This document shows, one piece after another, positions 25,723-53,200 of a DNA stretch of 64,000 nucleotides (positions are counted from its first letter, which is position 1; every line of letters begins with the position of its first letter). The notes under the pieces were generated by a model, which saw only the letters and a program-made list of their open reading frames with translations, made no database searches and was not told where the DNA came from. The position numbers and the translations under genes were made by a program. Source of the DNA: Daphnia pulex (Eukaryota > Arthropoda > Branchiopoda > Diplostraca > Daphniidae); the NCBI RefSeq assembly GCF_021134715.1, contig NC_060023.1:9114001-9178000 (forward strand), read 5' to 3'.

Positions 25723-28204
25723 TTAAATCGCGCCGTTCAATTCACTTTGCAGCTTTGCGACGAGGTGGTGTCTCAGGATTTTGCCCAACTTGTTGCGCGG
25801 AATGCTCTCGATGAAGCGGACACCTCCCCTCAATCGTTCGTCATCGACAACTTTGTCTGATGTAATTCAATTCATTCGTTAAAAAAAAATGTTCTAGTCG
25901 TATGAAATAATTCCGTTTTCAGACCGTTTGTAAAGTCGATTAATTCCTGTGGGTTGGCAAGCGGTCGACCCTCTTGATTAGTTTTGATGACTACATAAGC
26001 CAGCGGATGTTCCCCGTCGATATCGTGAGGCAATCCAACCACGGCCACGTCTTTTACGGCTGGATGAGTCATCAATTGCGTTTCAATGTTGCTCGGAGCT
26101 ACCTGCAACATTGAATTTGTTCCAGACAGTTTTATATTGCTTGCACTTTAAATGATTTTATAGAAAGACAAGGGGGGGGGGGGCTGACCTTTCTCGCTTG
26201 ATATTTGATCATTTCCTTGTAGCGTCCGATAACAAAGAGGTCACCGTCGGTGTCGTAATAGCCTTGATCTCCGGTGTTGAACCATCCATCAATGACTTCC
26301 TAGAGAAAATTCATTTCATTGACAACTTTTCGATGGCGGTTATTCGCAGTTTCTTACCGTTGGCTGATTGAGATATCCTTTCATGAGAAATGGCGTATTG
26401 GCAACTACTTCGCCGATTCTGCCTGGTCCTAATTTTTCACCGGTATTTGAATCAATAATCTATTTGATTTCATATCGATTTCACTGTTAGAATTTAGGAC
26501 GAGCAGAAACATTTATTGCTCACTATAGTACCCTAATTTTGGCGAAGGGGAAAATCTGACCCGAGGAACCGATTTTGTGACCTGCAAAGTGAAATTTGTA
26601 ACATTAGTTAAGGGTTTCCGTTAAACTAACTAAAAGGTCGCGGTATTACTTTTAATGATTTCTTCTCTGTCGAGCTTGACAGCTGATATCGGTGCCCTAT
26701 CCAGAGTTAGTAACATAGTCTCCGACATGCCGTACATCTGCAAAAAGTAATGAGCAATTTGAATAGAATTACAGAGATTTATAAAATTAATAGCAAGACG
26801 AATTGTTACGCTGATAAGTTTCTGGAGATTCGGCATAATTTCAAATATTTGACGTTCAAATGTCGACAAGGCTGAGCTCCCGCAATAGACGATGGTATCA
26901 ACGCTGCTGAGATCATATCTATTCGTTTCCTTGTGAAGACAAATGCCAGCCATTTCATGTGGGAAAATATTGATCCGTGTAGGCTATTGAATTATTTTGA
27001 TAAGAGAAATTGACATGTATAGATTGTGACAGATAGATTGACCTCTTTGTTCATATTCTTACTTTAATCGTATCAATTCCTTGAAGAAGGCCTTCCAATG
27101 TCGGTACAGTGAAGGTGAAGGCAGTGGCGTGTTCGGCCGTGGCTCTCATGGAGTAAAACAAACCAGAGCCGTGCATCATTGAACCGGTGAACATAAACGT
27201 TTGCCCCGCCAATTCCATCTTCTTATTCCTGCTCTCGGCACACAAAAGGAATTCGCCTTTTTAATAATTGCCTTTGTTAAAAAGGCAGTTTTATGAAATA
27301 GTTTACGACTCACTTGTCATCGGGCGGTCGCAAATAGGGGCTCAGCGAGTAGTGCGTGTGCACGATGCCTTTAGGGATGCCTGTGGTACCGCTGGAATAA
27401 GTGAACCATGCCGGAGCAAGCACGTCGAACTCGAATTCATCTACAGTTTTTATCCAAAAACAAATGACAAAAAAATTCTTTTTGGTTTTTAAATTATGGA
27501 ATTGATTATTGTTAAGCAAACCGTGTTCAAATTTTTCTTGCTGGGGTTCGAATAGTTGCGTAATCGGGATGCAACCTTCTGCCTGGCCAAAGACAAACAC
27601 CTGAATATTCAAGCCCTGGACGGCTTGCAAAACCTTGTCGGCCCTCGGTTCATCCGTCATGATGAACGGGCACTTTGTTTCAATCATTCTACTCCGAATT
27701 TGTTCTTTACCAAAAATAGTTTAGTGATGAATTGATTCTGTTAATTTGAGTGTTGTCATACCGGCAAGTAAACCAACGTCCATTGCGGAACAACTTCCGC
27801 ACGCTTTCCACACGGCAAAGTAAACAATCGGTATTTCGATGTGATTGGCTCCTATAAGTCCTACGACGTCCTTAGGCTGTAATCCCCTTCGGCGAAGCGA
27901 ATTGTAGACTCGATCAATTGCATCCGCCAGTTGAGAATAAGTCATCGATTCTCCCGTCGTTAAATCCGTCTAATCAATTTCCAGAAATGACAAAGTAACG
28001 CAACGCAATCGTCTCTTTTAAATAATATTTTTAAATAAAACTTAAACTTGCCATCCAAGTGATGTCGCCGTGAAGGGCTACATTTTCTCGAATTTTCTGC
28101 ACAATGTTCTCGCCGGTTACGGAAGGAACGTAACGGGACGGATGGAATAGTCCGTCGGTGTTAACGACGCCTTCACCAACTAGTTCGTTGTCGATTATCG
28201 GCAT
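25723..28204 (-). CDS. Acyl-CoA synthetase / 4-coumarate-CoA-ligase-like enzyme, copy 1
   Basis: Twelve exons (28204-28052, 27969-27762, 27704-27522, 27440-27314, 27228-27063, 26983-26810, 26737-26650, 26581-26532, 26459-26358, 26299-26189, 26102-25925, 25856-25723) join in phase to 557 aa, normal for the 4CL/luciferase-like adenylate-forming family. Motifs in order: the phosphate loop [11 protein letters not shown], the A5 motif YGMSET, STGDQ-type [16 protein letters not shown], the hinge GRYKEMIKY, and the C-terminal catalytic lysine in [10 protein letters not shown]. It should make an acyl-adenylate and then an acyl-CoA; the acid substrate is unknown. The C-terminus is NGAI, so there is no SKL-type peroxisomal signal. 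The first intron uses a GC donor (ATG|GCAAGT). The paralog lies immediately upstream in the same orientation. Confidence 0.9.
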
Positions 28205-28609
28205 GATGAGGTCTCTCGGGGTGTGAAGTCGAATACGCTCTCGGTCTAAATGCGCGGGCTCTTTTATGTGTGTGTAGATAAATCACCGAATGACGATGAC
28301 TATTCGTTTTGAAAATGAGATGTGGGAATATGTGGGGAATATGCTGTGATGTGGGCCAGTTGGTCCGTTACGGTTTTCTTATCTGCAATTCTGAATTTTT
28401 CATTTCTGACTTATCTGTTGAAAGGTCAACAATGCTCACAAACGGTCGAATGTTGGCATGAGACTCGATACGTGGATATGAATTCAAGCGCCAATGCATT
28501 GTTCTTTACCGATTTTTGTTAAAGAAGTTGTGCGTGATTTGGTTTTAATGAAGAATTGAGACTGACTGTGAACAGTTTTATTTATGATATCCATTTTCTT
28601 CTAGGGAAA
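28205..28609. other. Spacer between the two synthetase copies
   Basis: A 405 bp spacer holding the promoter of copy 1 and the 3' flank of copy 2. The last 45 bp before the copy 2 stop (from about 28563) repeat the flank found downstream of copy 1 (25678-25722), so the duplicated unit extended past the stop codon. Confidence 0.6.
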
Positions 28610-31072
28610 TTAAATCGCGCCATTCAATTCACTTTGGAGCTTTGCGACGAGGTGGTGTCTCAGGATTTTGCCCAACTTGTTGCGCGGAATGCTCTCGATG
28701 AAGCGGACACCTCCCCTCAATTTTTCGCTATCGGTAACTCTTTCTGAAATTGCCATTATAAGCATGTTTAATGCTTAGTCGTATAAAAATGATTCCATTC
28801 TCAGACCGTTTGTAAAGTCGATTAATTCCTGAGGGTTGGCAAGCGGTCGACCCTCTTGGTTAGTTTTGATGACTACATAAGCCAGCGGATGTTCCCCGTC
28901 GATGTCGTGAGGCAATCCGATCACGGCCACATCTTTCACGGCTGGATGAGTCATCATTTGTGTTTCAATCTTGCTCGGAGCCACCTACACATTTTATTTT
29001 TCCAGCCAGGTTATATTGATTGCTGCTTGCACTTGAAGTGATTTTAGAAGACGCGAGACTGACCTTTTTCGCTTTGTATTTGATCATTTCCTTGTAGCGT
29101 CCGATAACAAAGAGGTCACCGTCAGTGTCGTAATAGCCTTGATCTCCGGTGCTGAACCATCCATCAGTTACTTCCTAAATTACAGAATAATTTTTTGATT
29201 GCTATTATTCAGCATTGAAGAATTGTTCTTACCGTCGGTTGATTGAGATATCCTCTCATGAGGAACGGCGTATTGGCAACTACTTCGCCGACTCCGCCTG
29301 GTCCCAGTTTTTCACCGGTATTTGAATCAATAATCTATTTTTCATATCAATCGCAATATTAGAACAATGTATTCAGTTCTTATTTAATAGTACCTTTAGT
29401 TTGGCGAACGGTAAAACCTGACCAGAGGAACCGATTTTGTGATCTGCAAAATCAAACATATTTTAACAAGATTTAAACTAAGAGGTCACAGCACGGTATT
29501 CTACTTTTAATGATCTCTTCTCTGTCCATCTTGACAGCTGATTTGGGTTTTGGCTTATCCAGAGTAAGTAACATAGTTTCTGACATGCCATACATCTGGG
29601 GGGAAAAAATAAGCAAAGGACATGATGATCAAGAGTTCAGACTCTTCTGAAAAGAATAGCGAAAAAAGTAGTTACGCTGATAAGATTGTGGAGATTTGAC
29701 ATAATTTCAAAAATACGACGTTCAAAGGTTGACAAGATTGAGCAGCCGCAGTAAATAAGGGTTTCAACGCTGCTGAGGTCGTATTTTTCAAGTTCGGGGT
29801 GGATACACATCCCAGCCAGTTCATATGGGAAAATACTAATTACAGTAGGCTAATTGCGAAATGATATGTAGAAAGCAATTATTTATTAGCTAGTTGACTG
29901 ACCTCTTCAATTAATATTCTTACTACCTTAATCAAATTAATCCCGTGAAGAATTGCTTCCAATTTCGGATCGGAGAAGGTGAACATGACTTTATGTTCAA
30001 CCGTACCCCTCGTGAAATTAAACAAACCCGAACCGTGAACCATTGAACCGGTGAACATCAACTTTTGCCCCACCAATTCCATCCGCTCATTCCTGTTCTC
30101 CACAGCCAAATAAATTCTCTTAAATGGGCTTGTTTTTAAAAAGGCAGTTTTATGAAATAGTTTACGACTCACTTGTCATCGGTCGGTCGCAAATAGGGGC
30201 TCAGCGAGTAGTGCGTGTGCACGATGCCTTTGGGGATGCCGGTGGTACCGCTGGAATAAGTGAACCATGCCGGAGCAAGCACGTCGAACTCGAATTCATC
30301 TACAATTTTTATCCAAGAAGAAATGACAAAAAAATTCTTTTTGGTTTTTAAATTATGGAATTGATTATTAAGCAAACCGTGTTCAAATTTTTCTTGCTGG
30401 GGTTCGAATAGTTGCGTAATCGGGATGCAACCTTCTGCCTGGCCAAAGACAAACACCTGAATATTCAAGCCCTGGACGGCTTGCAAAACCTTGTCGGCCC
30501 TCGGTTCATCCGTCATGATGAACCGGCACTTTGTTTCAATCAGCCGATTTCGAATTTGCTCTGAACAGAAATATCCGAATGAAGCAGCACGATTCAAGAA
30601 AAACAATTAAATTTTGCAGATGCATTAATGTACCAGGAAATAAACCAATGTCCAATCCGGAACAACTTCCGCACGCTTTCCACACGGCAAAGAAAATAAT
30701 CGGTATTTCGATGCGATTGGTTCCGACAAGCGCTACGGTGTCCCTAGGTCGCAATCCTCTTCTCCGAAGCGAGATGTGCAATCGGTCAATTGCAACCGCT
30801 AGTTGAGAGTAAGTCATCGATTTCCCCGTGCTTAAATCCGTCTGATAAATTACGATAACATTACAGCGTTCCGTAGAAAGTTCTTTTTCTTTTTTAAACA
30901 TATTTTAATACAAACTTGCCATCCAAGTGAGGTTACCGTGAAGGGCTACATTTTCTTGAATTTTCTGGACAATGTTTTCGCCGGTTATTGAAGGAACGTA
31001 GCGGGATGGATGAAACTGCCCGTCGCTGTCAATGACGCCCTCGCCAACCAGTTCGTTGTCGATTATCGGCAT
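28610..31072 (-). CDS. Acyl-CoA synthetase / 4-coumarate-CoA-ligase-like enzyme, copy 2
   Basis: Tandem paralog of the preceding gene with the same twelve-exon structure, the same GC donor in intron 1 and no frame break that I can find. The adenylation motifs are retained: [42 protein letters not shown] and [10 protein letters not shown], again ending NGAI. The middle region that lines the acyl pocket in this family differs most ([19 protein letters not shown] here, [19 protein letters not shown] in copy 1), suggesting a different substrate range. Exons 3 and 4 are nearly identical between the copies, introns included. Start at 31072: [12 protein letters not shown], matching copy 1. Confidence 0.9.
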
Positions 31073-32094
31073 AATGTCACTAGGAGCGAGTAGAAGTCGA
31101 ATGTGTTGGAAGTTGTGAAAACCTGTCTATTATGGTATACTAGATAAAGATTGTACTTAACGGTAGGCGTATTCAAACAGCTTCACCGACAACTTCACAG
31201 AGAGCCTCACACAGGATATCCACCCACAATAGTCGCAGACAGATGTGGGTATGTTAGGAGCGAGGAAAGGAGGGGAGGAGAACAACGCTGTCATATTGGT
31301 GTATATACTACTCAGTTTGTAATATCCAACAGAATGCACTCTCATACGAAATACACGGGCTCTTTACTGGATGTGAAGATGACGAATGACGCTGACAATG
31401 CGTTGTTGAAACACGTTGGGCTAAGAGGGTCAATTGGTTCCTTGCGATAGCCTTATCTTCATTTCAGGCCCTTATCGGAGAGAACGTAAACATTTTTCAA
31501 ACGATTTGTGTGTTGCTATGAGACTCGCATACCACCTGAAAATTAATTCAAATGACAATTGATCAAATCAACGTCCGTATATGTACTTCATACAAGAGTT
31601 GTTGTTCATGAACTTTTCATAAGGAAGTTTCGGGGGTTCTTGAGTTTGAGTTTTAATGAAGAATGATTCCTTCTCATTGCCTCATTTCCGTGAGACAAAC
31701 TCTTATGGTGTCACTCAATTCTTTCCTGGTGTAGCAACGGGAATGACAACCAGCGGATGTCGTTGATCAGCTGCGGTGTTCTTATTTGTGACTTTTTTGT
31801 TTTTTCCGTAGTTATGATTATTCCTGTAATTCATTTTGATAATTACTTTAGCAGTGCATCATCCTTGGACGCCGAGATTAATTTGTACCCCGGAAAAAAG
31901 AACGAGTCTATAAAACGGAAATGAACTTCCCGGTGCCAAGTTCACTTGTTCGCCACCAGCCATCCTCTATCAACGTCTGCATTGCTTCAATACAAAGGTG
32001 AATTCAATCTAAAAGAAAGAAAGCATAAAATATTGTATAATTTATTTATTTTTTAAAATAAGCCTTACACATTATTTCAACTGTTGATAGGAAA
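31073..32094. promoter_or_regulatory. Divergent promoter region; TATA box of the CUB gene
   Basis: It separates the minus-strand synthetase copy 2 from the plus-strand CUB gene. A TATAAAA box lies at 31909-31915 on the plus strand. A leader exon would follow, with a donor (AAAG|GTGAAT) near 32000 and an acceptor (GATAG) ending at about 32091, four bases before the CUB start codon. ORFs between 31150 and 31450 have no recognisable content. Confidence 0.55.
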
Positions 32095-37795: not shown

Positions 37796-39357
37796 AAGTT
37801 TAACCGCGATGGATTCCGTGAATGAACAGCTCTATACAGTAAATCATAGTCGTGATATTTGTATACAGTGTGTGTGTGTATGTGTACAGTCATCACGCCA
37901 TCATAAAATTTAGCCAAGTATTCTATGGACTTTATTCTTCATGTTCATCAAGGCTTTTTTATCAAGAACTTGAATTTGAGCGATGTCATTTTACCGGTAC
38001 GCCATATCCATTACATCTCTACTCTCTTTATTTTCTCCATTCCTGGCGGATGTTCTTTTAAAATAAAAAAATACATAAAGACCCTACAGTCACTCTAATG
38101 ATAAAGTTGAATCTGTTTGAGTTTTTGACTCTTTTTGAGTTTGACGTTTATGTTGGCAACTGAGCTACTCGGTCATGCAACCGTGCCAACTCAACATTCA
38201 CAACAACTCCTTCGTTCAAGTTTTTCAAAATGGTGGTCCTGGTCGCCTTTCCGATGGTGTGAACTTCGTAGTCTGTGGTATAAATGTGATTATAGTTACT
38301 CACAGAGTAATCCTATAACTAGGATTATAGCCTACTTGTTTTTTTGTGATTATGGTCACGATTCTCAACGTTCATTTGGTTAGTGTGATTCGTTTTCTTG
38401 TTCTTGTTTTGCTATTTGCCTATTTCTCTTGTAAATCTCTTGTAACCATATAGGAGTGTGTGAGAACTCCTTCAGTGAGAACTCTTTCACCATGATTGTA
38501 ACAATTCTACGTGTGGTAATTTTTTTTCTGCTAAAACTTTCAACCTATTAGTTACTTGCAGAATACTGATCGTGTTCAAGCTCCAACATCAAAGTTGTTA
38601 TTGTGATCCTTTCACCTTTCACTTACCTAAATTTTTGAATAGCTGTAAAGCATAGTTTACTCTTTATTTATTTAGATGTCAACAATTGATTGGTTCTGAT
38701 CAATTTGGATTAACTTATGCTTTCTATTTTAAAAAGAAGAACTCGTCATCAATATTTTACTAATAATTCTTGGAATCTTGACTAGAGTATTTGAATTAAA
38801 GCCCTTGTGTCTTCTTGTGACCTGCTGATGTTGCTAATGCCTGCTGGTCAATCCAATCACTCAACAGTTTTCTATTTATGATGTTGTTTTTATTAAACTT
38901 TTCCATCCCGTAGCATCTACGATTGCACAGTATGTTTTAAAAGAAGGTTCAAATATTTCAGATATTAGACACAGTGTTCAAGAAACCTTTTTTCTTTTAG
39001 GTGGATGATCCCTGATGTTCAGTTTTTATTTGAATGCTGAAATATCTCACTACTCCTGTCTAGTTCTTCCATTTTTCCTATGGGACTGATTGTGTTATGG
39101 GAAGGATTGTTCCAGTGTTTACATTTTTGCAACTTGTGAGAACTTATTGACTGAGAAAAGAGGTTTCTAACAAGGCTCAACTGTGTGTACATCATGAAAT
39201 GAATATAGATTGATCATTTATTTGAAATTTAGATAATAGGTTGTAGAGGAATATTTTTCAAAAAAGCCGACTGTCCTTCAAACGGTTCGAAATGGACGAT
39301 TTATTCATTCACCGAAGAAAGGAGTCAAATTTGGTATTCATTTTTTTAAAATTGGTT
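37796..39357. other. 3' UTR and intergenic region
   Basis: About 300 bp of 3' UTR with an AATAAAA at about 38062, then more than 1.2 kb with no gene or element that I recognise. Confidence 0.4.
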
Positions 39358-39362
39358 TTGTA

Positions 39363-39715
39363 GACCCATCCCCAGCAACGTCAACCGCAGAAGGAAAGGC
39401 CAGTTTGCATGTCCTTCACTTTCGAAGGTCACAGAGATCATTACGTAAAACGTTTCTTGCTGTGGTGTAGAGGTTGGGTGAGAACGGGACGTGTTTTGTT
39501 AAATAACCATTTGGTATTCATTTTGATTTTGTTTGTTTCAGACCCATCCCCATCAGCGACGTCAACCTGCAGAAGGAAAGGCCAGCAGTTTGCATGTCCT
39601 TCCTTCGCGCTCGAAGGTCACGTTGATTTTTACGTAAAACGTGTCATGCAGTGGTGTAAGAGGTTGGGTGAGAACGGGACGTGTTGCTTCATTATCAAGC
39701 AGGTACAATAGCCGC
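39363..39715 (+). repeat. Tandem duplication of an upstream block with AGGTCA half-sites
   Basis: Two copies of a block of about 160 bp, starting GACCCATCCCCA at 39363 and 39541 and ending GGTTGGGTGAGAACGGGACG. Each holds TCGAAGGTCA (AGGTCA at 39426 and 39615). A third, shorter copy begins near 41551 (AGGTCA at 41559). In copies two and three the block runs on into AGCCGCAAGGCTTA and then a TATA promoter, so it is upstream promoter DNA of the tyrosine-rich genes. AGGTCA is a nuclear-receptor half-site; binding is inference. Confidence 0.7.
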
Positions 39716-39747
39716 AAGGCTTAGGAGGTGAGGGTAAGAAAGAGTCG

Positions 39748-39783
39748 TATAAAAGGAGAGAGAAAAGGTGAAAGAAATCAGTC
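39748..39783 (+). promoter_or_regulatory. Core promoter copy 1 (TATA + initiator)
   Basis: TATAAAAGG at 39748 and the arthropod-type initiator TCAGTC at 39778, 30 bp apart, followed by GAGTG. The same module recurs at 40371/40399, 40993/41023, 41304/41332 (degenerate), 41693/41721 and 42281/42307 (degenerate TATAACAGG). Confidence 0.8.
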
Positions 39784-39867
39784 GAGTGCACAACTCCGAC
39801 ACGGCAATAACTGCAGAGCACTATTTGTCCCCAACTCCATACTTTGTTGTATTATCAGTTCGCAAAC

Positions 39868-40369
39868 AATGGTAAATATTTTGTTGTATTACATAGAGTA
39901 TAGTATCTATTTCTATTTTTTTTTTTCGGTTTGATAATATGTAAGTTATTATTTAATATCAATATTTAAATGTATTTACTGTCTAGTTAACTATGGCGTC
40001 GTGCTTCTATTGGGTGTTGTATCCTTGACGGCTGGGTCAACAGCTGCTGTACCGATGTTACATCTTATGATGCCCGGGATAGTTCACCAAAGCCCTGAAG
40101 TATAACTCTGCCCTGAGTTACATCACAAAAGAGCCTGCGGCAATAGACTGAGGCTCCCACACCACTAAGTCACCGGGGTACTACATGACTACGTATGCTG
40201 CCCTTGCATACTTCACCGAGGCTCCCAAAAACTACTCCGCCTCTTAGCTACTATAGTACTACACTGAGGCACCAACTTATTACAACACCGAAGCGCCCAA
40301 TTACTACAACCTAAGCTGTCCAGAGCTACTACACCGACGCCCCGAAGTATTACTCTGCGTAAAAGATGT
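39868..40369 (+). pseudogene. Tyrosine-rich YYT repeat gene, broken copy 1
   Basis: It has core promoter copy 1 and a first exon that ends at the start codon. A G present in the intact copy is missing (ATG|GTAAAT instead of ATGG|GTAAAT). Exon 2 begins after an AG at about 39986 and, read in the ancestral frame, gives VNYGVVLLLGVVSL, the signal peptide. The frame then hits TAA and later TAG codons, while out-of-frame remnants of YYTEAP repeats continue to about 40360. A processed protein is unlikely. Confidence 0.75.
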
Positions 40370-40370
40370 C

Positions 40371-40404
40371 TATAAAAGGAGAGGAAAGGTGGTAGAAATC
40401 AGTC
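40371..40404 (+). promoter_or_regulatory. Core promoter copy 2 (TATA + initiator)
   Basis: TATAAAAGG at 40371 and TCAGTC at 40399, 28 bp apart. It lies 84 bp upstream of the start codon of the only open copy. Confidence 0.8.
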
Positions 40405-40487
40405 GAGTGAGGATCTCCGTCACGACAGCAACTGCAGTGCACATCTGTCACCAACTGCATTCCTCATCGTATAACCAGTTCGCAATC

Positions 40488-40921
40488 ATGGGTAAATATT
40501 CTGTTTTATGTCACTTTTTACTAAATTTTAATATGCCAGTTGTTATTGAATGTTAACGTTTAAATTTTTTTATTGTCTAGTTATTTATGGCGTTGTACTG
40601 CTGTTGGGTGTCGTATCGTTGGTGGCCACTGGTGTGGCGATGTCTCCTGGTTATGGCAGATGTCAAACCACAACGCCACCGCCTTACTACACAACAACAA
40701 CTTACGCAACGACCAGTTACTACACAGAGGCCCCTCAATACTACACTAACAAAGCCCAGGAGTATTACACCACAACGTACGCTGCCCCTAGCTACTACAC
40801 CGAAGTCCAAAAACATTATTCTTCCCCGAGCTTCAACACCAAAGAGCTTGAATACTACACCGTGATCCCAAGTACTACACCACCAAGGCATCGGAGTACT
40901 GTTAACTACATATCATGGTAA
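40488..40921 (+). CDS. Secreted tyrosine-rich YYTEAP-repeat protein (only open copy)
   Basis: Two exons, 40488-40491 (ATGG) and 40581-40921, give 114 aa. A signal peptide (VIYGVVLLLGVVSLVATGVA) is followed by MSPGYGRCQTTTPPP and repeats of the type YYTEAPQYYT, YYTTTYAAPS and YYTEVQKHYSS. Such Tyr/Thr/Pro-rich secreted repeats suggest a structural extracellular protein, for example cuticular or adhesive with tyrosine cross-linking; that role is inference. The last 20 or so residues (VIPSTTPPRHRST...) are in a shifted frame relative to the ancestral KYYTTKASEYY text, so even this copy has a decayed tail. Its stop codon lies within a copy of the exon1/intron1 junction (CATGGTAAATATTCTG). Confidence 0.6.
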
Positions 40922-41242
40922 ATATTCTGTTACATGGAGTTTTAAATATGCCATCTATTGATTATCAAATTTTTTATTGTCTAGACCATACGTATAAAAG
41001 GAGAGAAAGGCGAAAGAAATAATCAGTCGAGTGATCATTGAGTGGCCTCCAAATACTGCATCACCAAGGCACCGGAGTACTACACTACTAAGTACGTTGC
41101 TCTAGCTTATTACACCGAGGCTCCCAAGTATTACTCAGCTCCCAGCTACTACACTGAGGCTCCAACTTACTACACCACCAGAGCGCCTGAGTTGTACACC
41201 ACCAAGGCACCGCAGTACTACACCGCTACATATCTTGGGTAA
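40908..41242 (+). pseudogene. Tyrosine-rich repeat fragment without signal exon
   Basis: An intron-1-like sequence (GTAAATATTCTG ... TTGTCTAG, to about 40984) runs straight into core promoter copy 3 (40993/41023). An open frame at 41042-41242 follows with KAPEYYTTKYVALAYYTEAP and KYYSAPSYYTEAPTYYTT but without ATG exon or signal peptide. It ends at another GTAAATATTCTG junction. Confidence 0.65.
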
Positions 41243-41303
41243 ATATTCTGTTACATGGAATTTTAATATGCCAACTATTGAATATCTAAATTAATTGTGT
41301 AGT

Positions 41304-41520
41304 CATAAAAGGAGAGAAAAGCCGGTTGAAATCAGTATATTGAATATGAATGTTACAATTTTTTTTTATTTTGAGGTCATCTGCGACATGGCAACAACTG
41401 CGGTGCACTATTCGTTACCAACTGCATTCTTCGTCGTACCACCAGTTTGCCATCATGGGTAAATATTCTGTTTTTTACGTGGAGTTGTGAAATGTGAATC
41501 CTGTTTTTATTTGTTAATTT
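41304..41520 (+). pseudogene. Orphan promoter and first exon of a tyrosine-rich gene
   Basis: A degenerate core promoter (CATAAAAGG, then TCAGTA) is followed by a 5' UTR and an ATGG|GTAAATATTCTG first exon at about 41455-41458. No exon 2 follows; the next recognisable sequence is the third copy of the upstream block and a new promoter. Confidence 0.6.
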
Positions 41521-41692
41521 GTCAGTTACAATCGAAAAAATTTGATGTTCACGCTTGGAGGTCAGAAGAAACATTTCGTAAAACTGGCATGCGGTGGTGT
41601 AGAGGGTAGGTGAGAACCGGACGTTTTGCATCATTATCAAAAGGTACAATAGCCGCAAGGCTTAAGAGGTGGATCAGGGTGAGAAATAGTCG

Positions 41693-42200
41693 TATAAAAG
41701 GAGAGAAAAGGTTATAGAAATCAGTCGAGTGAGTATCTCCGACACGGCAACAGTCACTGAATTGCACAACATGTCAGCAACTGCCTTCGTCGCTTTACTG
41801 ATTCTCAATTATGGCCAAATAATGTTACATGGAGTTGTGTATCATATCTACTTTTTTCTTATGTTTTTTAACATGCCAGTTTTTATTGAATGCAAATGTT
41901 TAAATTGATTAATTGTGTAGTAAACTATGTCGTCGTGCTGATGTTGGGGGATGTATAGTCTCGTCCAACTACTGGTGTACTGATGTCTTCTGGGTATGGT
42001 GGGTATGAAACCGCAACGCCGCATGTTACTACACCGAGGCCCCCAAGTACTACACCACCAAGTCTCCAGATTATTACACCACAACTTCGCTGCTCCGGGC
42101 TACTACACCGATTACCCGAAATTTCTTCTTCCCCGAGCTACGCCATTTAAGGGCCGAGTACTACAACGAGTCCCATAATGACAACACCACTACATATCAT
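41693..42200 (+). pseudogene. Tyrosine-rich repeat gene, broken copy
   Basis: It has an intact core promoter (TATAAAAGG 41693, TCAGTC 41721). The first-exon junction is mutated (TTATGGCCAAATA) and the signal exon is frameshifted (AACTATGTCGTCGTGCTGAT, then TAG). Remnants of CYYTEAPKYYTTKSPDYYTT and a final GTAAATATTCTG junction remain. Confidence 0.65.
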
Positions 42201-42280
42201 GGTAAATATTCTGTTACATAGAATTTTAATATGTCATTTATTGAATATCCAATTATACAATATTATTTATTGTCTAGTCG

Positions 42281-42892
42281 TATAACAGGGGAGAAGGCGA
42301 TAGGTATCAGTCGAATGTTTATCACCGACATGGCAACAACTGTAGTGCAGTAGTCGTCACTAACAGCGTTCTCCGTCGTACCACCAGTTTTGAAATCATG
42401 GGTAAATATTTTTTTTTGAGATGTGAATTAGCTCTACATTTATTCTATATTTTTAAATGCCAGTTATTATTGCATATTAATGTTTCAATTGAATTATTGT
42501 TTAGTAAACTATTTTGTCGTGCTGCTGTTGGGTGTCGTTTCGTTGATGGCTGAGTCGACCACTGGTGTACTGATGTCTCCTGGGTATGGCGGACATCAAA
42601 GCACGACGCCGCACTTACTATGGAACATCAACATACGACACGACCAGTTATTACACCGAGACCCCTAAGTACTACACCACCAAGGAACCATAGTGTTACA
42701 CAACTACAAATGCTGCGCCAGCTTATTACACCGAGGTCCCAAGTACTACTCTGCTCCCAGCTACTACACCGAGGCTCCCAAGTACTACTCTGCTACCAGC
42801 TACTACACCGAGGTTCTAGCTTATTACACCACTAAAACAATCGAATACTACACAGAAGTTAACATTGGTAAATATTATGATTTTTTTCATTG
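42281..42892 (+). pseudogene. Tyrosine-rich repeat gene, frameshifted copy
   Basis: A degenerate promoter (TATAACAGG) and TCAGTC at 42307 precede ATGG at 42398-42401 and a good signal exon from about 42505 (VNYFVVLLLGVVSLMAES, then MSPGYGGHQSTTP). A frame slip near 42615 leads to a stop at 42668. Repeats continue in another frame, with YYSAPSYYTEAPKYYSATSY readable at about 42745-42810. Confidence 0.7.
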
Positions 42893-42972
42893 AGATGTGA
42901 AATAACTGTACATAATTTTTTAATATGCTAGTTATTATTGCATATAAATGTTCAAATTATTTTTGTTATCTA

Positions 42973-43741
42973 GTGATCTATGGCGTGCTGCTGTTGGGTG
43001 TTGAATCGTTGATGGCTGTATTGATCACTGGTGTGTTGATGTCTCCTGGGTATGGCGGGTATCAAACCACAACGCCGGCGTCTGACTGCACGACAACAAC
43101 AACATACGCAACGACCAGTTACTACACTGAGGCCTCCAAGTACTACACCACCAATGTTCCAGATTGTTATTCAAAAACATAAGCTGTCCCGAGTTACTAC
43201 ACAGCAGCCCCGAAGTATTATTCTTCCCCGAGTTCCACCACCAAGTCATCGGAGTATTACACAACTACGTATGCAGCGCCAGCTTACTACACCGAGGCTC
43301 CAAAGTACTACTATGCTCTCAGCTACTGCACTGAGGCTCCAGCTTATCACACCACCAACGGTCGAAAACTACACAAAAGTGACAAAGAACTACTCTGCCC
43401 CGAGCTACACAACCCTAACTGAGGCGGCCAAGTATTACGTAGCCTCAACTTTCTACACAACTGCCGCCCCTTCGTAAAATTACGCTGAACCAAAATACTA
43501 CACTGAAGACCCAGTTTGCTACACCACAACCTACGCTACACTCTGCTACTACACCGAAGCTCTGAAGTAGTACACTACGAAGGTACCTGAGTTCTATGCC
43601 ACTACATACGATGCTTCGACCTGCTACACCGAAGCTCTTAAGTATTACTCTGCTCCGAGTTATTACACCACTAAGGGATCTGAATGTTACACCACGACCT
43701 ACGCTTCTCCAGATAACTACAAGGAGGCTTCTAAATACTAG
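42973..43741 (+). pseudogene. Tyrosine-rich repeat gene, longest broken copy
   Basis: The signal exon from 42974 reads VIYGVLLLGVESLMAV, then MSPGYGGYQTTTPAS and a YYTEASKYYTTNV repeat, ending at a TAA at 43182. The first-exon start codon is mutated (ATTGGTAAATATT). Repeat-coding text with several stops continues to a TAG at 43741, and an AATAAA lies at 43800-43805, so this is probably the original 3' end of the array. Confidence 0.7.
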
Positions 43742-44153
43742 ATCTGAAATTGTTTTTCATGTGATTTCACTGAGAATTCTTGTTGAAGTTGTATGAGAAA
43801 ATAAATTTTTATGCGGGTAAACATCTTGTAAAACTTTTCTTAAATCCTTCAAACCTTTTGCCATTGCGAAGTGTTCTCATTGTTTTAGATCTTTCCTAAT
43901 TAACTTATGTCTGACAATTCTACTAAACGACATTCTGAAGCTTGGACGAATTTCATTATCAGATCAAATTACGAGAGAAACGTACTACGTTCTCTAAATT
44001 TTCATAGATGTTAACTGAAAGCATATCTTGAGATAAATAATGTAATATATTACAAGACACAATGAACAAATACTTAAAAAGGAATTGCTGTTTTGTCCCA
44101 CCTCCACCCACAATTCCACCACATTTTACAATCATATACATACATACACTTAA
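43742..44153. other. Intergenic
   Basis: It contains the polyadenylation signal of the array (43800) and otherwise nothing that I recognise. Confidence 0.4.
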
Positions 44154-44154
44154 G

Positions 44155-44437
44155 TTAACCCGTTGGCTGCCACGCCATACAACCCGTAGGTTGCTCTCTA
44201 CTACTCTACGCGTCACGTCTGAAGGATCCATGACCAAGTGGGACTTGCCATTGCTGACAAGTCCGTGCTGACAAGGGAGGGGGGACTGAGGTGCATTGCC
44301 TTATAACAGGCTTGCCTTGCGGCAAATTTTGGGCTTGGCGACTCTCCGACCCCGCGGCTTGTAAGCCACGAGACCGAACAGCGCGGCCCGTGCAGGGGAG
44401 CTAGGGGAGAACAAAGGCGTGGCAGCCGACGGGTTAA
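44155..44437. mobile_element. piggyBac-type MITE with TTAA target duplication
   Basis: TTAA at 44155 is followed by CCCGTTGGCTGCCACGCC; at the other end GGCGTGGCAGCCGACGGG is followed by TTAA at 44434. The inverted ends match in 17 of 18 positions. TTAA duplications with CCC...GGG ends are the mark of piggyBac-family elements. The GC-rich interior of about 240 bp has no transposase, so it is non-autonomous. Confidence 0.85.
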
Positions 44438-44511
44438 CTAACACTAACACAAATATATTACCAACAACAAATGATGATCCGCGCTGACATTTTGGAGATA
44501 CCGGCGACGTT

Positions 44512-45775
44512 TTAGTGTCCATCTTCTCGACGTTTCCTCTGCATTACCTGAATAAAGATAAAACAATTCTTATTAGTGACATGCCAATAAAAGTTACATA
44601 ATATAGATAGAAACAATAGTCAGGTTTTTAAGCTCAAACATTTAAAGATGCAATTTTTTAACTTAAAATCAAGCTTGCAATATTAAGAACAATACACAGA
44701 ACAAAGCTCACTTGCTAGTCTAAAAAAAAAATATTCCGGAAGTAGACCGGAAGTAACCACAGCGCCTCAACCATTGAGCTGTCGTCAAAATAAACCACAT
44801 ATTCGTGATCTCCATGAAATTTGGGGTCGATTAGATGTGATTTAAACGAAATCCAAAATTTGGCCAAAATCGAGAATTTTCCTGAACTATAGTTCAGGAA
44901 AATTTTCGAAACCGGAAGTACGAATACGTAAAAAAGATAACATGAACTTTACCACAAATTCGACGAGGATCACGAATATGTGGTTCTTTTGCACCTCGAA
45001 TGAATATTTACTGAACTACTGACGGAAATGAGCAAAACCGGAAGTAGAAAAAAAAACAAATATCGAAAATTTAACAAGTGAGCTTTGTTGCAGGAATAGT
45101 TATCGTCAGTTATCACTAAATATTTCAACAAAATAACTGCCAATAAATGTTTAAAGAGATGTTGAAAGTAACTGAAATTGACTGTTTTGACAGCTAAAAA
45201 TTATCAAAAAGCCATCTAGCGCTAGAAAAAAGAAACTTCCAAGTAAAACTTCGTTGGCGCGTAAAATGACCTGATTTTGGAAACTATTACACAGCTAACG
45301 CAACTAGACTATCGATAGATAACCTACGAAAATAAGTCAATTGTTGGGTACCTGGGCATAATCCCGTGGTCTGCAGGTGTGTAACAGCGGACGGAATCGA
45401 TCACTGAAGTGGTCCAGAAACTCGCCAATTCGCCAGTGAAGTACAACAAATTGTGTTTAGAAGCAGTGAAGAGCATGCGTCGCGAAGATAAGGATGTTGG
45501 TGGAAGTCCCTCTTCCGTCATGGACAAAGGTCAGCATTTGCACAAGAATCTTCGTGCCAGGACAGCACGATTCCTAAAGAAGCTGCGTGCTCTGTAAAAA
45601 CAAATGTTTTAAATTAATGTAAATATAACAATGAATAAAGCATATAAATCTTTACCTTTTCTAAGAAATACACTGAAATGTTCATGATAAGAACAGGAAG
45701 AGAGAAGAAACCGTAAAAATGGAATTCACAGCAACCAACAGCATAACTCCACATGATGAGATAAACTTCCTGATG
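44512..45775 (-). CDS. Possible C-terminal exons of an unrecognised membrane protein
   Basis: Two candidate minus-strand exons join in phase. Exon 45775-45656 encodes HQEVYLIMWSYAVGCC, then FHFYGFFSLPVLIMNISVYF and LEK. Exon 44547-44512 encodes VMQRKRREDGH and a stop. Donor and acceptor dinucleotides are good, and the hydrophobic segments followed by a basic tail look like a membrane protein end. I could not find a coherent upstream exon: the candidate near 45835-45900 has stops in the needed frame. It may be partial or a relic. The foldback element and the plus-strand ORF at 45381 lie in the intervening 1.1 kb. Confidence 0.28.
44700..45089. mobile_element. Foldback element built on one long imperfect palindrome
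   Basis: Perfect 15 bp terminal inverted repeats (AACAAAGCTCACTTG at 44700-44714, its complement at 45075-45089). A 16 bp inner inverted pair (CCACATATTCGTGATC at 44795 and its complement at 44968-44983). A perfect 30 bp palindrome lies at 44875-44904 (arm AATTTTCCTGAACTA). All three share nearly the same centre (about 44890). Four CCGGAAGTA motifs are spread through it. No ORF. Confidence 0.75.
45381..45597 (+). CDS. Unidentified terminal exon or processed fragment
   Basis: An open frame of about 72 codons from an AG acceptor (near 45380): RTESITEVVQKLANSPVKYN, then KLCLEAVKSMRREDKD, ending in a basic tail (ARTARFLKKLRAL). A consensus AATAAA at 45634-45639 follows the stop. The composition looks like protein rather than chance, but no upstream exon is found and I do not recognise the family. 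The first Met is at 45409. Confidence 0.35.
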
Positions 45776-48700
45776 CTAAAGAAAGTGTTATGAATTATTG
45801 CAGTAGCGTGGTGATAGTGTGTATTGTTGCTTACCTTTATCATCCAGATGATTGACTTTCATCAAACAGATCTGGTACATACATGGCAGATCACTTCACA
45901 CTCTTCATGTCTCTGAAACTCTAGGTAGCAATGGGACAAGGAAATTCTCTACATTATTTACAAATTTATACGAATTTAGAAATAAAACTCTACCTATCCC
46001 TCAGCTGGGTTGTCTTCTAACCAGAAGTAGAAACAGTCATAATAACAAACATGCTGTAGCAGGGTATGCCACCAAAATTGCGAGATTCAGAAAAGATCCT
46101 ATGGTTTATGAGCAAGAATACCTGTTATATGAAAATCTGAATTTTAATGGTCTCGTAGCAGTAATGGGGAAATACCTTATCTCGGCACATTGGTATTCCA
46201 CTATATGTGTGCTTCAAACATGAGTTTTAGGCTTTAGACAGCATGAGGATCTAATGGATGGAAATTGACTGAGCGATAAGTCAACCTGTTGGAATGACTG
46301 ACAGTATGCATCTAGAATTTGAAGAAATGAGTTAGTACAGTATAAAAATAAGGAAACTAGGTCAAGATAAACCTACATAAGTCACGAAGTTCAATTTGGT
46401 ATGTGAAATCACAGGAATATAAGTATAAATAAGCAACCAGTTGTTTCGCCCATTTTGCCTCTTTTTACGATGTAACGATGTAACAACAACAAGGGCGACA
46501 CTAGCGACATCTAGTAATGAGTTTTGAATCCTAAGTTGGTTACACACAGTCACAGCTCAAATTATTGGAGTTCTATTGTCGGTAGTGGAGTTCTACTGTC
46601 AGATGATAAAAATATTGGGGTTCTATTACGGAGATGATGAGGTAACTGTTATTAAGTAATAGATCACACAATCTTTAGCTAATGATTCTTACTGCGTTCT
46701 TGACTAACTGTTTTCAGATAATTCACCTGAAGTGACTGCCACTCAACACTTTGTAGTGATCACACCATTTAGTTTTAATTTAGGACAATGTAAGATTGAT
46801 ACTTTATGGCTTGAAAATTACATTTAGATGTTGTTATAGTTGCTTGGATATTGAGGAGATTGTTGGAATTGAAGACTATTTAAGTAGAATTAGATAAATT
46901 ACAAGAATATATTTCGGTTCTCTTTTTTCAATGACCCCGGTTCCCTAACTAATCACCAGTAATCAACGCCCGTGGTTTATCATGTTTCCACTGTGATAAT
47001 CAGAGAGGTGCTGGTCGAACGGGGATTTGGAGGTTCTCGTATGTTAAATTTGTCTAAGAAATTTATTATGGATACGTTGAAAATGTTGATTTTTATAAGA
47101 ATTTTAGATATAATTTTCTTCATTTTAATATTTATTTACAGTTAATATTTAAAATATTCAACCTCCATTCTTATTCTTCTCAAAAAAGCAGCAAGTTGTT
47201 TTCATCTCTGGTCACAGAAAATATGGTTAAACATGAAAGAAATTACAGATGAAAAACATTCAGTAGCTTTGTTATCAAGCTCCTAAATCGGGAAACATGC
47301 TAGTAGTTGTATTTGTTACAGTTATTTTCTTTTATTAAATAATAAATAATAATAAAAAAAATAATAACGCCATTTGACACAGGAAACATCGATACGGGGT
47401 AAATATTGACAAAAGGAGTGTGCCATAACAAAAAACACTCCACAGCAGCTTATTGACGTACCATTAAATTAAAAAACCGCAAGTAGGATGGTAGTTAGAA
47501 CTTCACTGCAATACCGTATATGGAACAACCTATGAAACAAAGTGAAATGTAATTCAATAAAAATAGACAAGATTGTATGCATAAATAAGAGGTGCATTTA
47601 ACTTTCACATTAACATTTCCCGAGAATATGATAGCTGCTACCTTCAAGTCTTCAACATTTTATCAGAAATCCCGTGAATAAAATTAAGATCAATCCACAA
47701 TCGTTCAAGGATGGTGGACAAAAAGAAATCTTTGGTCAGGAGAGTCGTCATACTCATTTGTGTTTAAAAATTTCTACCAGCAACTATTCCAGATACAAAA
47801 TCGTGAGTCTCCCCGCAAAATCTTACAATCTCAACCGAGTTACCTTCTATAGGGATTCTTCCTGTAGTAAGTAAAAAAAAAACAACTAACCAGGATGCGA
47901 ACAGCTAGCACATTAGATTGCTCAACCAGATTGCACAAAAACCTACAAGTGAAATATAATTTTTAAAATGTCATTAATTAAAACACTACATTTGAGGGAG
48001 CATCAATTGGCACTGCTGCCTAACAACCGTTAAAGGCTTAAATTTACTAAGAAATTCTTCCAGTAACAAACAGATAAAAAAAATAGAAACTGGTGGACTA
48101 GAGAAAATTTTTAACTTAATATTTTAACCATTCAAAAAATTCACTAGCTACTATCCACCAATATTACATCTTCTAGAAATGACAGACTTTGAAAATAAAA
48201 TTTCAATCAAACAACCTTTCCTATGGAGTCTTCCTGCACAGGTAGTGTAGATTTTAATAACCCCTCACATACTGAGGTACAACTTGAAGAATGGGATGGC
48301 TCTCACTGCAGTTAAGACACAAGGTTTAACTACATATTTCGACCACAATGAACAAATAAAATTCCAGTTACTCATTTTTAATCTACAAAAAGATTTTATG
48401 CGACTTTCCCACATCTGGTAGATTAAGATCAGTCCACAAAAAGAAAAAAATTCATTTCCTGTACATAATAATAAATAATTTAAAGTGATTATTCAAATCA
48501 TATGTTAACAAAAGAAAAATCATTGACTTCAGGATAATCAAAACCTAAAAAAAAAGATTCAGTTGTTTCCTCCAAAAATGAATCAACCAGAAAAAAACAT
48601 GTTACTGATTACTGAATCTCAATTGAGTTACCTTCTTCATGGAGTCGTCCTGCACATGTGGTAAGCGAGGTATATTTCGAGATGAATTTGGTAATCATCG

Positions 48701-50226: not shown

Positions 50227-53200
50227 CTAATAATAAGTCTCTCTTTCAATCCATCCACCGGGATTGTTACGAAGAATAAACTTGCGAATTTCATCGTAGA
50301 TGAAGATGAGGAGAGAGAACGGAAGAGCCGGGCCCCACCAGTTGATCCTGCATTCATGCAAAGTTGTTTTTTTAGTAAATATTCCTGAAGAAATACCCAA
50401 CGAATGAACAAATCCTTACTTGAGCGGGTACATGCGAAGACCCTTGTCCATGCCGGGCGTGTAGCAAAGGAAGCAGGCGACGGCTGTCTCGAAAAAGAGA
50501 CCGAAGGTGAGGACGTGATTGCGCATGCCTTGCTGGAAGAGTGAGTTGCGTCTGGTTTTGCAAATGAGCAAATCAGCCCATTGCACAATAACGATCGATA
50601 CGAAGAAGGCAGTGTGGCAGGTGTACTCGAGTTGCTTGCGGGCATCGTACGTCTGAATGAATTTAGTGGATGAATAAAATTAATGAAATCACAAAAATCA
50701 AATCCAGTGTGACATTTGATTTCTCCTTACCCATTCCTGTCCGTAGGAATCTTCGAGATCGTTGACGGATCGGGAATCCCATCGCTTACGGATACCCAAC
50801 AGCAGGTCGGGCTTGAATCCGTTTTCGGCCATAATGACAAGATAGGTGAAGAAACCGGCCGAAGCTTGCATCATACCAATTTGACCGTAAGCCATGGAAA
50901 TCAATCTAAATTGACATAATAAACAAAATCAGTTTGAAGTCAAATGAAGTGTTAGGGAAATTTAAGCAATTACCTTTCGTTGACGAGTTTGTCAGTGAAT
51001 GGATTACGAGGGCGACGCTTCATGATGTCGGATTCGGATTCTTCGTAGGCAAGAGAGATGGCCGGTACCTGTTGGGAAAACAGTTAGAAATGCGACGTCG
51101 TATTTTGTGTAAGAGAATTCAAAATGATTTACCATGTCGGTACCCAAATCGATACACAAGATGGTGACAGTTCCAAGAGGAAGGGGGATATCAAGCAGAA
51201 TGAACATCAAGAAGGGGGAAATCTCAGGAATGTTGGATGTCAGGGTGTAGGCGATGGACTTTTTCAAGTTGTCGAAAATCAGACGACCCTCTTCAACACC
51301 GGTAACGATGGAAGCGAAGTTGTCGTCCAACAAGATCATGTCAGCGGCCTGTTTGGAGACATCAGAACCGGCAATACCCATGGCAACACCTACACGTTGA
51401 AATAATACAAAAATTTGAATTTGAAAAAATCCTACAGAGAATTGACATTAAGTGCGGGCATATACCGATATCGGCTTTCTTCAAAGCGGGCGAATCGTTG
51501 ACACCGTCACCGGTGACGGCCACAATGGCTCCTCCACGTTGGCAACCCTCGACGATGATGAGTTTCTGTTGAGGTGACGTGCGGGCAAAGACAATCTCCG
51601 TGTGGTAGCGAAGGATGTCGTCGAGTTGGGCCGGGGTCAAGTCACGCAATTCACCACCGTGGACGACGGCGGCCTTGGCGTCTCTCGGGTTGACACGGTC
51701 GACGGGAATGTTGAGACGCTCGGCAATATCTTCGACGGTTTCACTCTCCTCGGAAATGATACCAACTGATCGGGCAATAGCTTTGGCAGTGATAGGGTGG
51801 TCACCGGTAACCATAATAACTGAAACAAAAATAGATTATTAAGAAAAGATTCAAATCAAACGGTTGAAATGAAAAACAATTACCTTTAATTCCGGCGGAG
51901 CGGCACTTGGCGACGGCATCGGGTACGGCGGCACGTGGGGGATCGATCATGGACATGAGTCCGACGAATCGCATTCCGTTGATGGGGAAATTGACTTCAT
52001 CGGCGTCGAATTTGAAGCCTTTGGGGAACTGGTCCAGTGGCAAGTGGAAATCGCAGAAGCCGAGCACTCGCTCGCCGAGACCTCCCAGGCTCATGTAAGC
52101 CGTGTTGAAAGCGTCCTTCAGTTCGTTGTCCAACACCTTCTCTTGCCCATTGATGAAAATGGTCGAGCAGAGATCGAGAATGCGCTCGGGCGCTCCCTTC
52201 ATGGCCATGAAGTAGCGGCCGTCGTTCTTGTCTTCGTTCTCGTGGATCGACACCTGGTACTTGTTGGACGAGTTGAACGGGATTTCACAGACTTTCTTGT
52301 TTCGGCCGCGAATGTTCATGGCATCACCGGTGGCCAATTCGACGCATTTCAACAGGGCGGCTTCAGAGGCGTCACCGTTGACTTCGCGTTTCAAAACGGG
52401 CATGCTCTGTTGGCCCATTTTGAATTCAGCTCGGCTGCACAGGCAAGCGACGCGGCACAAGGCCTTCCATCCCAAACTGGTCTTGTCGTATTGGGCACCT
52501 GCAAACAGAATCACGGATGAAACCTAATACGAATAGAAACATTTTTGTTTTCTTTGAATTTACCGGATTGGTTTTCGCTGGTATCGGCTTCGATAATTTG
52601 GCCGTCGAACCACATATGGGCAACGGTCATTCGGTTCTGTGTCAAGGTTCCAGTCTTATCTGAGCAGATGGTCGACGTGGATCCAAGGGTTTCGACAGCC
52701 TCCAAATTCTTGACCAAGCAATTCTTCTTGGCCATGCGCTTGGCCGTCAGGGTCAAACAGACGGTGACGGTGGCGAGCAGACCCTCGGGTACGTTGGCGA
52801 CGATGATGCCGATTAAAAAGATGACGGCATCGAGCCAGTTGTAGCCGAGAGCGAGAGCGATGATGAAAAAGGAAACTCCCAAGAAGACGGCCACTCCCGT
52901 AATGATGTGAATGAAATGCTCAATCTCCTTGGCGATGGGCGTCTGTCCGGAGCTCAAGCCGGAAGCCAATCCAGCGATGCGACCCATCACTGTGTTGTCA
53001 CCGATGCTGATAATAATACCTTTGGCAGTACCTGAATGAAACAAGAAAAAATTAACGTTTAAAAGTTGTCTCTGTGCAAAATGGTCAGAATTTTGATTTA
53101 CCTTCGACGGCGTTGGTGGAGAAGAAAGCCAAGTTTTTGGTTTCCAGCGGGTTGTCGTGAGTGAATTCGGGAGATCGGCTCTGAGGCTCAGATTCTCCAG

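Follow-up and report, generated by a model that had tools for sequence, protein, structure and literature searches.

The window (the whole 64,000-nucleotide stretch of Daphnia pulex DNA that was analysed) holds, at 39.12-46.53 kb, what we read as one copy of a dispersed repeat unit: an old copy, decayed and with a single arm. Jointly with the conversion of arms proposed for other copies, we give this reading a probability of about two in three. Each unit would carry a single gene or a tandem series of genes, encoding a secreted protein under a TATA plus initiator (Inr) core promoter. Unequal exchange within the unit may multiply pieces of promoter, exon and intron, after which many copies would break. 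Elsewhere in the genome a good share of the units stand in convergent inverted pairs with near-identical arms, which most likely convert each other. As conversion affects whole arms, it could propagate broken and intact copies alike. The window copy has no partner arm and would simply drift.

Six core promoters in the window

Six promoter modules were found on the + strand of the window, at 39748, 40371, 40993, 41304, 41693 and 42281, confirming the count in an earlier note on this DNA; the - strand of the window contained none. In 60 dinucleotide-preserving shuffles of the window, with one mismatch permitted per module part, the mean was 0.37 modules and the maximum 2. Exact TATAAAAGG and TCAGTCGAGTG occurred together in four of the six (copies 1, 2, 3 and 5), again as had been claimed. 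The 26-30 nt spacing given in the same note is correct when counted from start to start but not as a gap, which is 17-21 nt. From TATA to A+1 the distance was 28-32 nt in all six. In the TATA plus Inr core promoters of arthropods, the TATA box lies about 30 nt 5' of an initiator TCAGT. By motif definition, the six modules are each the predicted TATA box and initiator core promoter of a secreted-protein gene.

All features given below lie on the + strand. Core promoter 1 (39748..39788) is exact and has a complete upstream region, which includes two tandem copies of an element of about 175 bp, copy A (39329..39495) being 82% identical to copy B (39503..39685). Core promoters 2 (40371..40409) and 3 (40993..41033) are also exact; Y-rich coding sequence lies upstream of the former, while the latter has intron-like sequence 5' and mid-gene Y-rich sequence 3'. 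Intron-like sequence also lies 5' of core promoters 4 (41304..41342; CATAAAAGG and TCAGTATATTG) and 6 (42281..42317; TATAACAGG and TCAGTCGAATG). The exact core promoter 5 at 41693 follows a partial upstream element at 41574-41627, the two together spanning 41574..41731. Outside the window (locus L009, excluded from this count) the upstream repeat gave 115 matches in 40 of the 45 other loci, at a mean identity of 80%. Inside it, two copies of the repeat precede module 1 and a 54-bp fragment precedes module 5; the other four of the six modules lack it.

Gene anatomy and predicted protein

The family gene is, to judge from its translation, one for a secreted Tyr/Thr/Ala/Pro-rich repeat protein, with a signal peptide followed by YYTTKAPEYYTTTYAAPSYYTEAPKYYS-like repeats. 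A tiny exon 1 (ATGG) appears to be spliced to the signal-peptide exon. Complete genes with predicted splicing were found outside the window at L023 (395 aa) and L034 (444 aa), and they have the promoter type, the ATGG/GTAAAT donor and the C-terminus in common with the window. The product is probably of a structural type. Searched against Pfam, the intact 395-aa protein contained no Chitin_bind_4 domain (PF00379), the domain of chitin-binding CPR cuticle proteins; it matched only Cornifin, at 32.4 bits and under the curated cut-off of 34.8.

A decayed array of gene copies

The whole unit, comprising upstream region, gene array and 3' region in a single arm, spans 39121..46530. Its limits were set by homology to L043, L044 and L046; the left limit is uncertain (about 39111-39125) and common to L031, L043 and L044, and the right limit is the axis of L044. 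The 3' region (44055..46530) shows piecewise homology to L046 (85-86%), L043 (87-88%) and L044 (79-88%). No inverted partner arm was found for the window copy: comparison of the window with its own minus strand gave one 35-bp match, elsewhere in the window.

As the earlier note had proposed, the array is tyrosine-rich, with Y-rich coding pieces spread all along it, and is decaying. Copy 1 (39869..40105) reads ATG/GTAAAT, one G short of the other copies, which places its signal-peptide exon out of frame and leaves a spliced product of only 14 aa. Copy 2 has exon 1 (ATGG) at 40488..40491 and, at 40581..40921, an exon 2 encoding a signal peptide and shortened Y-rich repeats, for a spliced ORF of 114 aa. 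Exon 1 of copy 4 (ATGG/GTAAAT, 41455..41458) has no signal-peptide exon 3' of it. Copy 5 (41811..42150) has lost its 5' splice site (ATGGCCAAAT) and carries a damaged signal-peptide exon. Copy 6 (42398..42668) consists of exon 1 at 42398-42401, an intron and exon 2 from 42505; from the ATG at 42398, its spliced ORF of 55 aa has a signal-peptide-like start and then a frameshift. Copy 7 (42867..43740) retains intron 1 and the signal-peptide exon without a promoter and continues into stop-bearing Y-rich repeats and the family C-terminus. The array has one terminal AATAAA poly(A) signal (43800..43805), in a sequence context resembling the L034 gene's 3' end; its last base is the coordinate at which the earlier note ended the array.

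Copies 2 and 6 both splice in frame, the only ones in the window to do so, contradicting the claim that a single copy has its start codon joined to an ORF. Frameshifts, the lost 5' splice site, promoters fused to coding or intron sequence and the single terminal AATAAA all fit birth-and-death, with truncated or broken copies in the window and full ORFs among their relatives. Read from the sequence, the finding of six promoters is in itself ordinary birth-and-death decay. Tandem copies at every stage of decay are what birth-and-death tandem arrays contain; unlike those, the window array belongs to a dispersed, often inverted, repeat family.

It is highly improbable that the array is instead one working gene with alternative first exons and many further exons, although intron 1 is in phase 1 and the promoters recur along the array. 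The pieces of exon 2 contain frameshifts and stops, the donor of copy 5 is lost and that of copy 1 is one base off. Departures from the family consensus at codon positions 1, 2 and 3 of the signal-peptide exon numbered 8/105, 15/105 and 20/105 in four window copies and 1/84, 1/84 and 5/84 in L016, L023 and L034, all of them small counts.

A scan at bacterial settings detected no tRNA in the window, and Pfam assigned one domain, a P-type cation ATPase, among seven window ORFs. At gathering thresholds, Rfam matched nothing in the window and L039-L046 but two histone stem-loops, both in L046.

Promoter conservation

We compared the promoters with the rest of the gene, as they had been thought better kept than the coding parts. 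This was not borne out. In the window, mean pairwise identity of the 50-bp promoter block was 0.71 (n = 6), against 0.74 for the 5'UTR and 0.71 for both intron 1 and the signal-peptide exon, with n = 5 for each of these three parts. Across the family we used 63 non-redundant copies, obtained by removing near-identical ones from a set of 103 that leaves out the window itself, matches starting past query residue 8 and matches without flank. Column scores, which were anchored on exon 2 and so are biased in its favour, were about 0.8-0.9 for most TATA and Inr columns, similar to the 5'UTR, and about 0.94 in 9-base windows at the start codon and 5' splice site. Promoter conservation was accordingly rejected as the distinguishing feature, both in the window and across the family. 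To the eye, the TATA and Inr hexamers look well kept.

The exact TATA and Inr at the usual spacing in four of the six modules would suit promoters that still fire and yield non-coding transcripts. We consider this very unlikely: the block shows no excess conservation, the upstream repeat is missing at four of the six, and all modules lie on a single strand and so predict no antisense transcription. The sequence thus lends no support to the suggestion that the promoters have been kept for non-coding or antisense transcripts.

A dispersed family with convergent pairs

Genome-wide, 83 exact modules were found in 133 Mb, compared with 0 for a reversed control pattern. A search with the coding sequence, in which 150 of 2075 first-look candidates were scored, gave at least 172 matches. 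A shortened form of the gene (about 95 aa spliced) occurs in L026/L027 and L039-L042, on several contigs.

Neighbouring family members often face each other. For the 83 modules, pairs of neighbours no more than 15 kb apart were convergent in 13 cases, divergent in 0 and on the same strand in 5. The 150 coding matches listed, of at least 172, formed 87 clusters: 33 were convergent (+-), 52 one-stranded and 2 otherwise mixed. Neighbour pairs within 13 kb among these 150 were convergent in 34 cases, divergent in 2 and same-strand in 27. Eight pairs chosen for being convergent, and hence not a random sample, were all inverted repeats. We then re-examined seven further convergent pairs of 3-kb loci, having first listed megablast matches longer than 1500 bp; six of the seven matched over 2.9-3.3 kb at 98.3-100%. 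The exception, L013/L016, matched at 69-72% only, showing that convergent genes need not lie on near-identical arms. Inverted pairs may be a frequent feature of the assembly as a whole.

Near-perfect arms can also arise when reads fold back or repeats are misjoined in assembly, and some arms show 100% identity across stretches longer than 3 kb. That the palindromes are artefacts of this kind, with only the tandem arrays real, nevertheless seems most unlikely. Where spacers could be separated, in four loci, they were dissimilar and 133-3524 bp long; five homologous spacers and the recurrence of palindromes at one family are not expected from random fold-back.

Arm identity, axes and proposed conversion

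Identity between the arms of a locus was 98.2% in L039, 99.4% in L040, 100% in L041 and L042, and 99.97% in L045. Between these five loci, which lie on four contigs, arm identity was 93.0-98.5%. In four of the five palindromes compared the two arms were each other's closest relatives, grouping with 100% support. L039 was the exception: its left arm shares 98.5 and 98.3% identity with the two L040 arms, more than the 98.2% it shares with the right arm of the same locus, and the arm differences of L039 run along the entire arm. The spacers of all five are homologous. Closest relationship within the locus in four of five, together with homologous spacers, suggests arm-to-arm gene conversion, by which the arms may keep copying each other.

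The position of the remaining differences varied. In L043 and L044 almost all fall in the inner 1.2 kb or so beside the axis and the outer arms are nearly identical (10 mismatches in the outermost 500 bp of L043, 2 in that of L044). In L041 and L042 they are confined to the last 100 bp, which is the spacer itself, and no gradient exists. We had considered a gradient towards the axis in six of seven palindromes, but a recheck of L041-L044 found spread past the spacer only in L043 and L044. The inverted spacer of L041 was likewise rejected as proof of crossing-over between arms, as a palindromic unit in the opposite chromosomal orientation looks alike.

The near-identical arms could instead reflect recent inverted duplications, separate at each locus, rather than old palindromes kept alike by conversion. 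The lack of a gradient in L041 and L042 fits this too: no difference separates their arms outside the spacer, and the palindrome continues into outer sequence unmatched by any other fetched locus, which a simple model of one palindrome followed by dispersal does not predict. Axes also differ between subfamilies, that of L043 corresponding to about 44.95 kb of the window and that of L044 to about 46.53 kb, indicating that palindromes arose more than once. Separate recent duplication is still unlikely as the general explanation, since homologous spacers in five palindromes on four contigs imply an inherited axis, and most arm differences in L043 and L044 lie close to the axis. Our confidence in the main explanation, decay of a partnerless copy beside arms that convert each other, is lowered by the limited gradient, by L039 and by L013/L016.

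We also weighed spread by transposition, in which the Y-rich genes would be the cargo of a mobile DNA element whose terminal inverted repeats are very long. The shortened versions of about 95 aa on several contigs indicate that spread needs no full-length gene, and a sharp 5' limit is common to four loci (the window, L031, L043 and L044) with dissimilar flanks. On the other side, outer limits differ at L040, L045 and L046, the 3' limit is unlike among the window, L044 and L046, inspection of five loci by eye revealed no target-site duplication, and six selected ORFs from five loci contained two histones and neither a transposase nor a reverse transcriptase. Transposition of this kind is possible but improbable. 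Dispersed units with long inverted arms do resemble terminal-inverted-repeat and foldback transposons; the common ends, target-site duplication and transposase of those elements were not found in the few loci examined.

Relation to known palindromes

Discussion of gene-bearing palindromes has mostly centred on sex chromosomes and asexual animals. In Drosophila, inverted pairs of Hsp70 genes are thought to be homogenised by conversion; they comprise a few intact genes, unlike the dozens of units here, in which many genes are broken. The human and ape Y chromosomes, in the portions of PMC7953838 available, carry palindromes of ampliconic genes between whose arms gene conversion acts. So far as those portions describe them, they share with the Daphnia units gene-carrying inverted repeats whose arms evolve in concert. 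The present units differ in being about 5-10 kb long, with several per contig on a number of contigs, in having many broken genes and in not being restricted to one sex chromosome.

Gene palindromes number 11 to 19 per genome in Folsomia candida and Adineta vaga, according to partial texts of PMC5490193 and PMC7953838; for Folsomia, the broad spread of Ks was taken as evidence against concerted evolution (PMC5490193, same portion). The likeness, as far as these excerpts go, lies in inverted duplications that contain multiplied genes and occur in an arthropod or parthenogen; different genes are involved there, whereas one gene family recurs here. D. pulex is named in the available part of PMC7953838 among the species that could not be screened for palindromes. 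We found no account of this family or its Daphnia palindromes in a literature search that covered subscription journals thinly and drew on portions of PMC7953838, PMC13322756, PMC12102780 and PMC5490193.

A broader interpretation, which we regard as quite doubtful, is that these are self-spreading, gene-bearing crustacean palindromes: the unit would repeatedly form mirror pairs on many chromosomes, and conversion would keep the arms alike regardless of whether their genes function. The promoters of both arms face each other, and read-through would therefore give a kb-long, almost perfectly matched hairpin RNA. If so, this RNA could be a source of siRNA against the entire family.

One family with many palindromes of varied age in a single chromosome-scale genome, their genes partly intact and partly broken, would permit direct measurement of arm-to-arm conversion: how fast it runs, how far it reaches toward the axis, and whether it rescues broken genes or spreads them. 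The lesson of the window itself is modest, in that dead copies with well-kept TATA and Inr can be ordinary decay. Annotation and copy-number work on this genome must cope with a large secreted-protein family, many of whose members are broken.

Promoter modules and gene structure of the window array

The pattern TATAAAAGG-N17..21-TCAGTC, allowing at most one mismatch per part, was found six times on the + strand of the window (at 39748, 40371, 40993, 41304, 41693 and 42281) and never on the - strand, against a mean of 0.37 and a maximum of 2 in 60 shuffled windows. Four of the six modules were exact, and the TATA-to-start distances of all six (28-32 nt) match the usual geometry of a TATA plus initiator promoter. 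The six modules reported in the earlier note, including the four exact copies, are thus real.

Copies complete at the 5' end run from the initiator through a leader of ~90 nt to ATGG|GTAAATATT, followed by an intron of ~90-115 nt ending in TAG and the signal-peptide exon. This exon 2 opens with a signal peptide (VxYGVVLLLGVVSL-like) and continues as YYTTKAPEYYTTTYAAPSYYTEAPKYYS-like repeats. Elsewhere in this genome, two relatives are complete: with the same splice they encode 395 and 444 aa, and Tyr makes up 27-28%, Thr 21-22%, Ala 14-16% and Pro 12-13% of the mature part. From its sequence, the transcript of this Y-rich family is predicted to be spliced and its protein secreted; a role in cross-linked extracellular material would be a guess from composition. 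Among 56 other copies, codon differences were somewhat more frequent at third positions (190/1537) than at first (120/1531) or second (136/1540), suggesting that the protein was once under some constraint.

The seven tandem copies of the window, numbered 5' to 3', are broken or partial. Copy 1 has a donor one base short and a predicted splice product of 14 aa; those of copies 2 and 6 are 114 and 55 aa. The promoter of copy 3 is joined directly to mid-gene sequence, copy 4 consists of promoter and exon 1 only, and copy 5 has lost its donor. Copy 7 is an exon 2 without promoter, with the family C-terminus at its end and then AATAAA at 43800.

Promoter preservation and upstream sequence

Mean pairwise identity within the window was 0.71 for the promoter block, 0.74 for the leader and 0.71 for both the intron and the signal-peptide exon. 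Across 63 non-redundant family copies, the start codon with its donor, rather than the TATA and initiator, was the best-kept block outside exon 2. The 70 bp directly upstream is coding-like at module 2 and intron-like at modules 3, 4 and 6. The family's ~175-bp upstream repeat, a candidate regulatory element, occurs twice at module 1 (tandem at 39329-39685, containing TTACGTAA), partially at module 5 and at no other module. Elsewhere it gave 115 hits, lying somewhere in 40 of 45 other loci and ~80% alike between loci.

Given this coding- or intron-like upstream sequence and the missing upstream repeats, the array appears to consist of pieces that unequal exchange multiplied and that have since drifted. 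The earlier note's view of the array as decaying was right. Its claim that the promoters are better preserved than the coding parts did not hold, and its interpretation of them was left unsupported, since the promoter block shows no excess preservation and the upstream repeat is confined to module 1 and, in part, module 5.

The promoters at 40993, 41304 and 42281 lie 1-8 nt from an intron-like acceptor (TCTAG or GTGTAG). Three loci elsewhere in the genome (L011-L013) also show a Y-rich end (...TYHG) running into an intron start, so this odd junction may be older than the window array.

A dispersed family with many broken members

We searched the genome to which the window belongs, 133,188,837 bases in 13 contigs. 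The extended module had 83 exact matches and its reversed control none. A 108-aa query gave at least 172 matches, a lower bound because 150 of 2075 candidates were scored. The 150 matches listed were spread over 11 of the 13 contigs; 14, counted by eye, lay in stop-free open frames 300 aa or longer, and the remainder had shorter frames or internal stops. As the coding search joins no exons, such frames are a rough sign of breakage and not a pseudogene count.

By eye, copies alike in module (identical or nearly so) or equal in frame length recur every ~67-116 kb along C4 (2.64-3.24 Mb), C8 (13.48-13.74 Mb) and C11 (1.98-2.15 Mb), with one gap of 198 kb. This regularity may reflect local spread or long-range homogenisation.

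Most convergent pairs compared are inverted repeats

Listed matches frequently appeared as + then -, 4-13 kb apart. They formed 87 clusters (33 convergent pairs, 52 one-stranded and 2 otherwise mixed), with 34 convergent against 2 divergent opposite-strand neighbours. All eight convergent pairs fetched (L039-L046) were inverted repeats, which gives no rate because they were picked for being pairs. The shortest arms measured 0.9 kb and the longest at least 4.9 kb, with three of them reaching the edge of the fetched stretch; spacers were 133-3524 bp in the four separable loci. Arm identity ranged from 95.6% in L039, where it was taken across the axis, to 99.93% in L045. Among seven further convergent pairs in 3-kb loci, six matched at 98.3-100% over 2.9-3.3 kb; the seventh (L013/L016) reached only 69-72% in short pieces. 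The Y-rich family is thus dispersed, with many members broken and a good part in near-identical inverted pairs. One locus, L046 (C10, ~4.30 Mb), also carries histone genes at 50-1361, H2B on the - strand and H2A on the + strand, each with a histone 3' stem-loop; its Y-rich inverted unit lies within ~1 kb of them.

In four of five palindromes the arms are closest to each other

Five palindromes belong to one subfamily (L039-L042 and L045; on C1, C9, C10 and twice on C11). Their within-locus arm identities were 98.2, 99.4, 100, 100 and 99.97%, compared with 93.0-98.5% between loci, and their spacers are homologous. In four of the five, each arm was most closely related to its partner, with 100% support for the grouping; the exception was L039, whose left arm was nearer L040 than its own right arm. 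An inherited axis with arms closer to each other than to relatives elsewhere is what arm-to-arm conversion would predict. Pairing would be poorest near the fold, gathering differences beside the axis; in L043 and L044 arm differences fell largely within the inner ~1.2 kb. L041 and L042, with differences confined to the spacer, are uninformative on this pattern, and the outermost bins held 15 mismatches in L040 and 10 in L043. An apparent spacer inversion in L041 was discarded as evidence because unit orientation gives the same appearance.

The family itself could have dispersed by segmental duplication or by transposition. In L041 and L042 the palindrome extends into outer sequence that had no match in any other fetched locus. 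Gene-conversion palindromes are a known phenomenon; a dispersed family with many broken members and near-identical inverted pairs is a setting that appears new within the open-access literature searched.

The window unit and its surroundings

Homology of the window to L043, L044 and L046 extends in pieces over ~39.12-46.53 kb, past both ends of the interval first noted (39748-43805). The left limit of this unit is common to four loci and its right limit falls at the axis of L044. The axis of L043 maps to ~44.95 kb, where an imperfect inverted repeat lies close by (44788-44990). As these axes occupy different positions in the unit, palindrome formation happened more than once. Self-comparison revealed no inverted partner of the window unit within the 64 kb.

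The 3' region of the unit contains a 283-bp element (44155-44437) whose inverted ends (TTAACCCGTTGGCTGCCACGCC / GGCGTGGCAGCCGACGGGTTAA) are bounded by TTAA and differ by one mismatch; we take it to resemble a piggyBac-type MITE. Elsewhere in the window, a direct repeat of ~2.5 kb (80% identical) occupies 25674-28208 and 28562-31076. A P-type cation ATPase piece (Pfam PF13246), presumably from a Na/K-ATPase alpha subunit, lies on the minus strand at 51804-52523. A diverged direct repeat (68%; 61128-62004 and 63157-64000) is adjoined by a tandem array at 63072-63148, in which a 15-bp unit is present in 5.1 copies.
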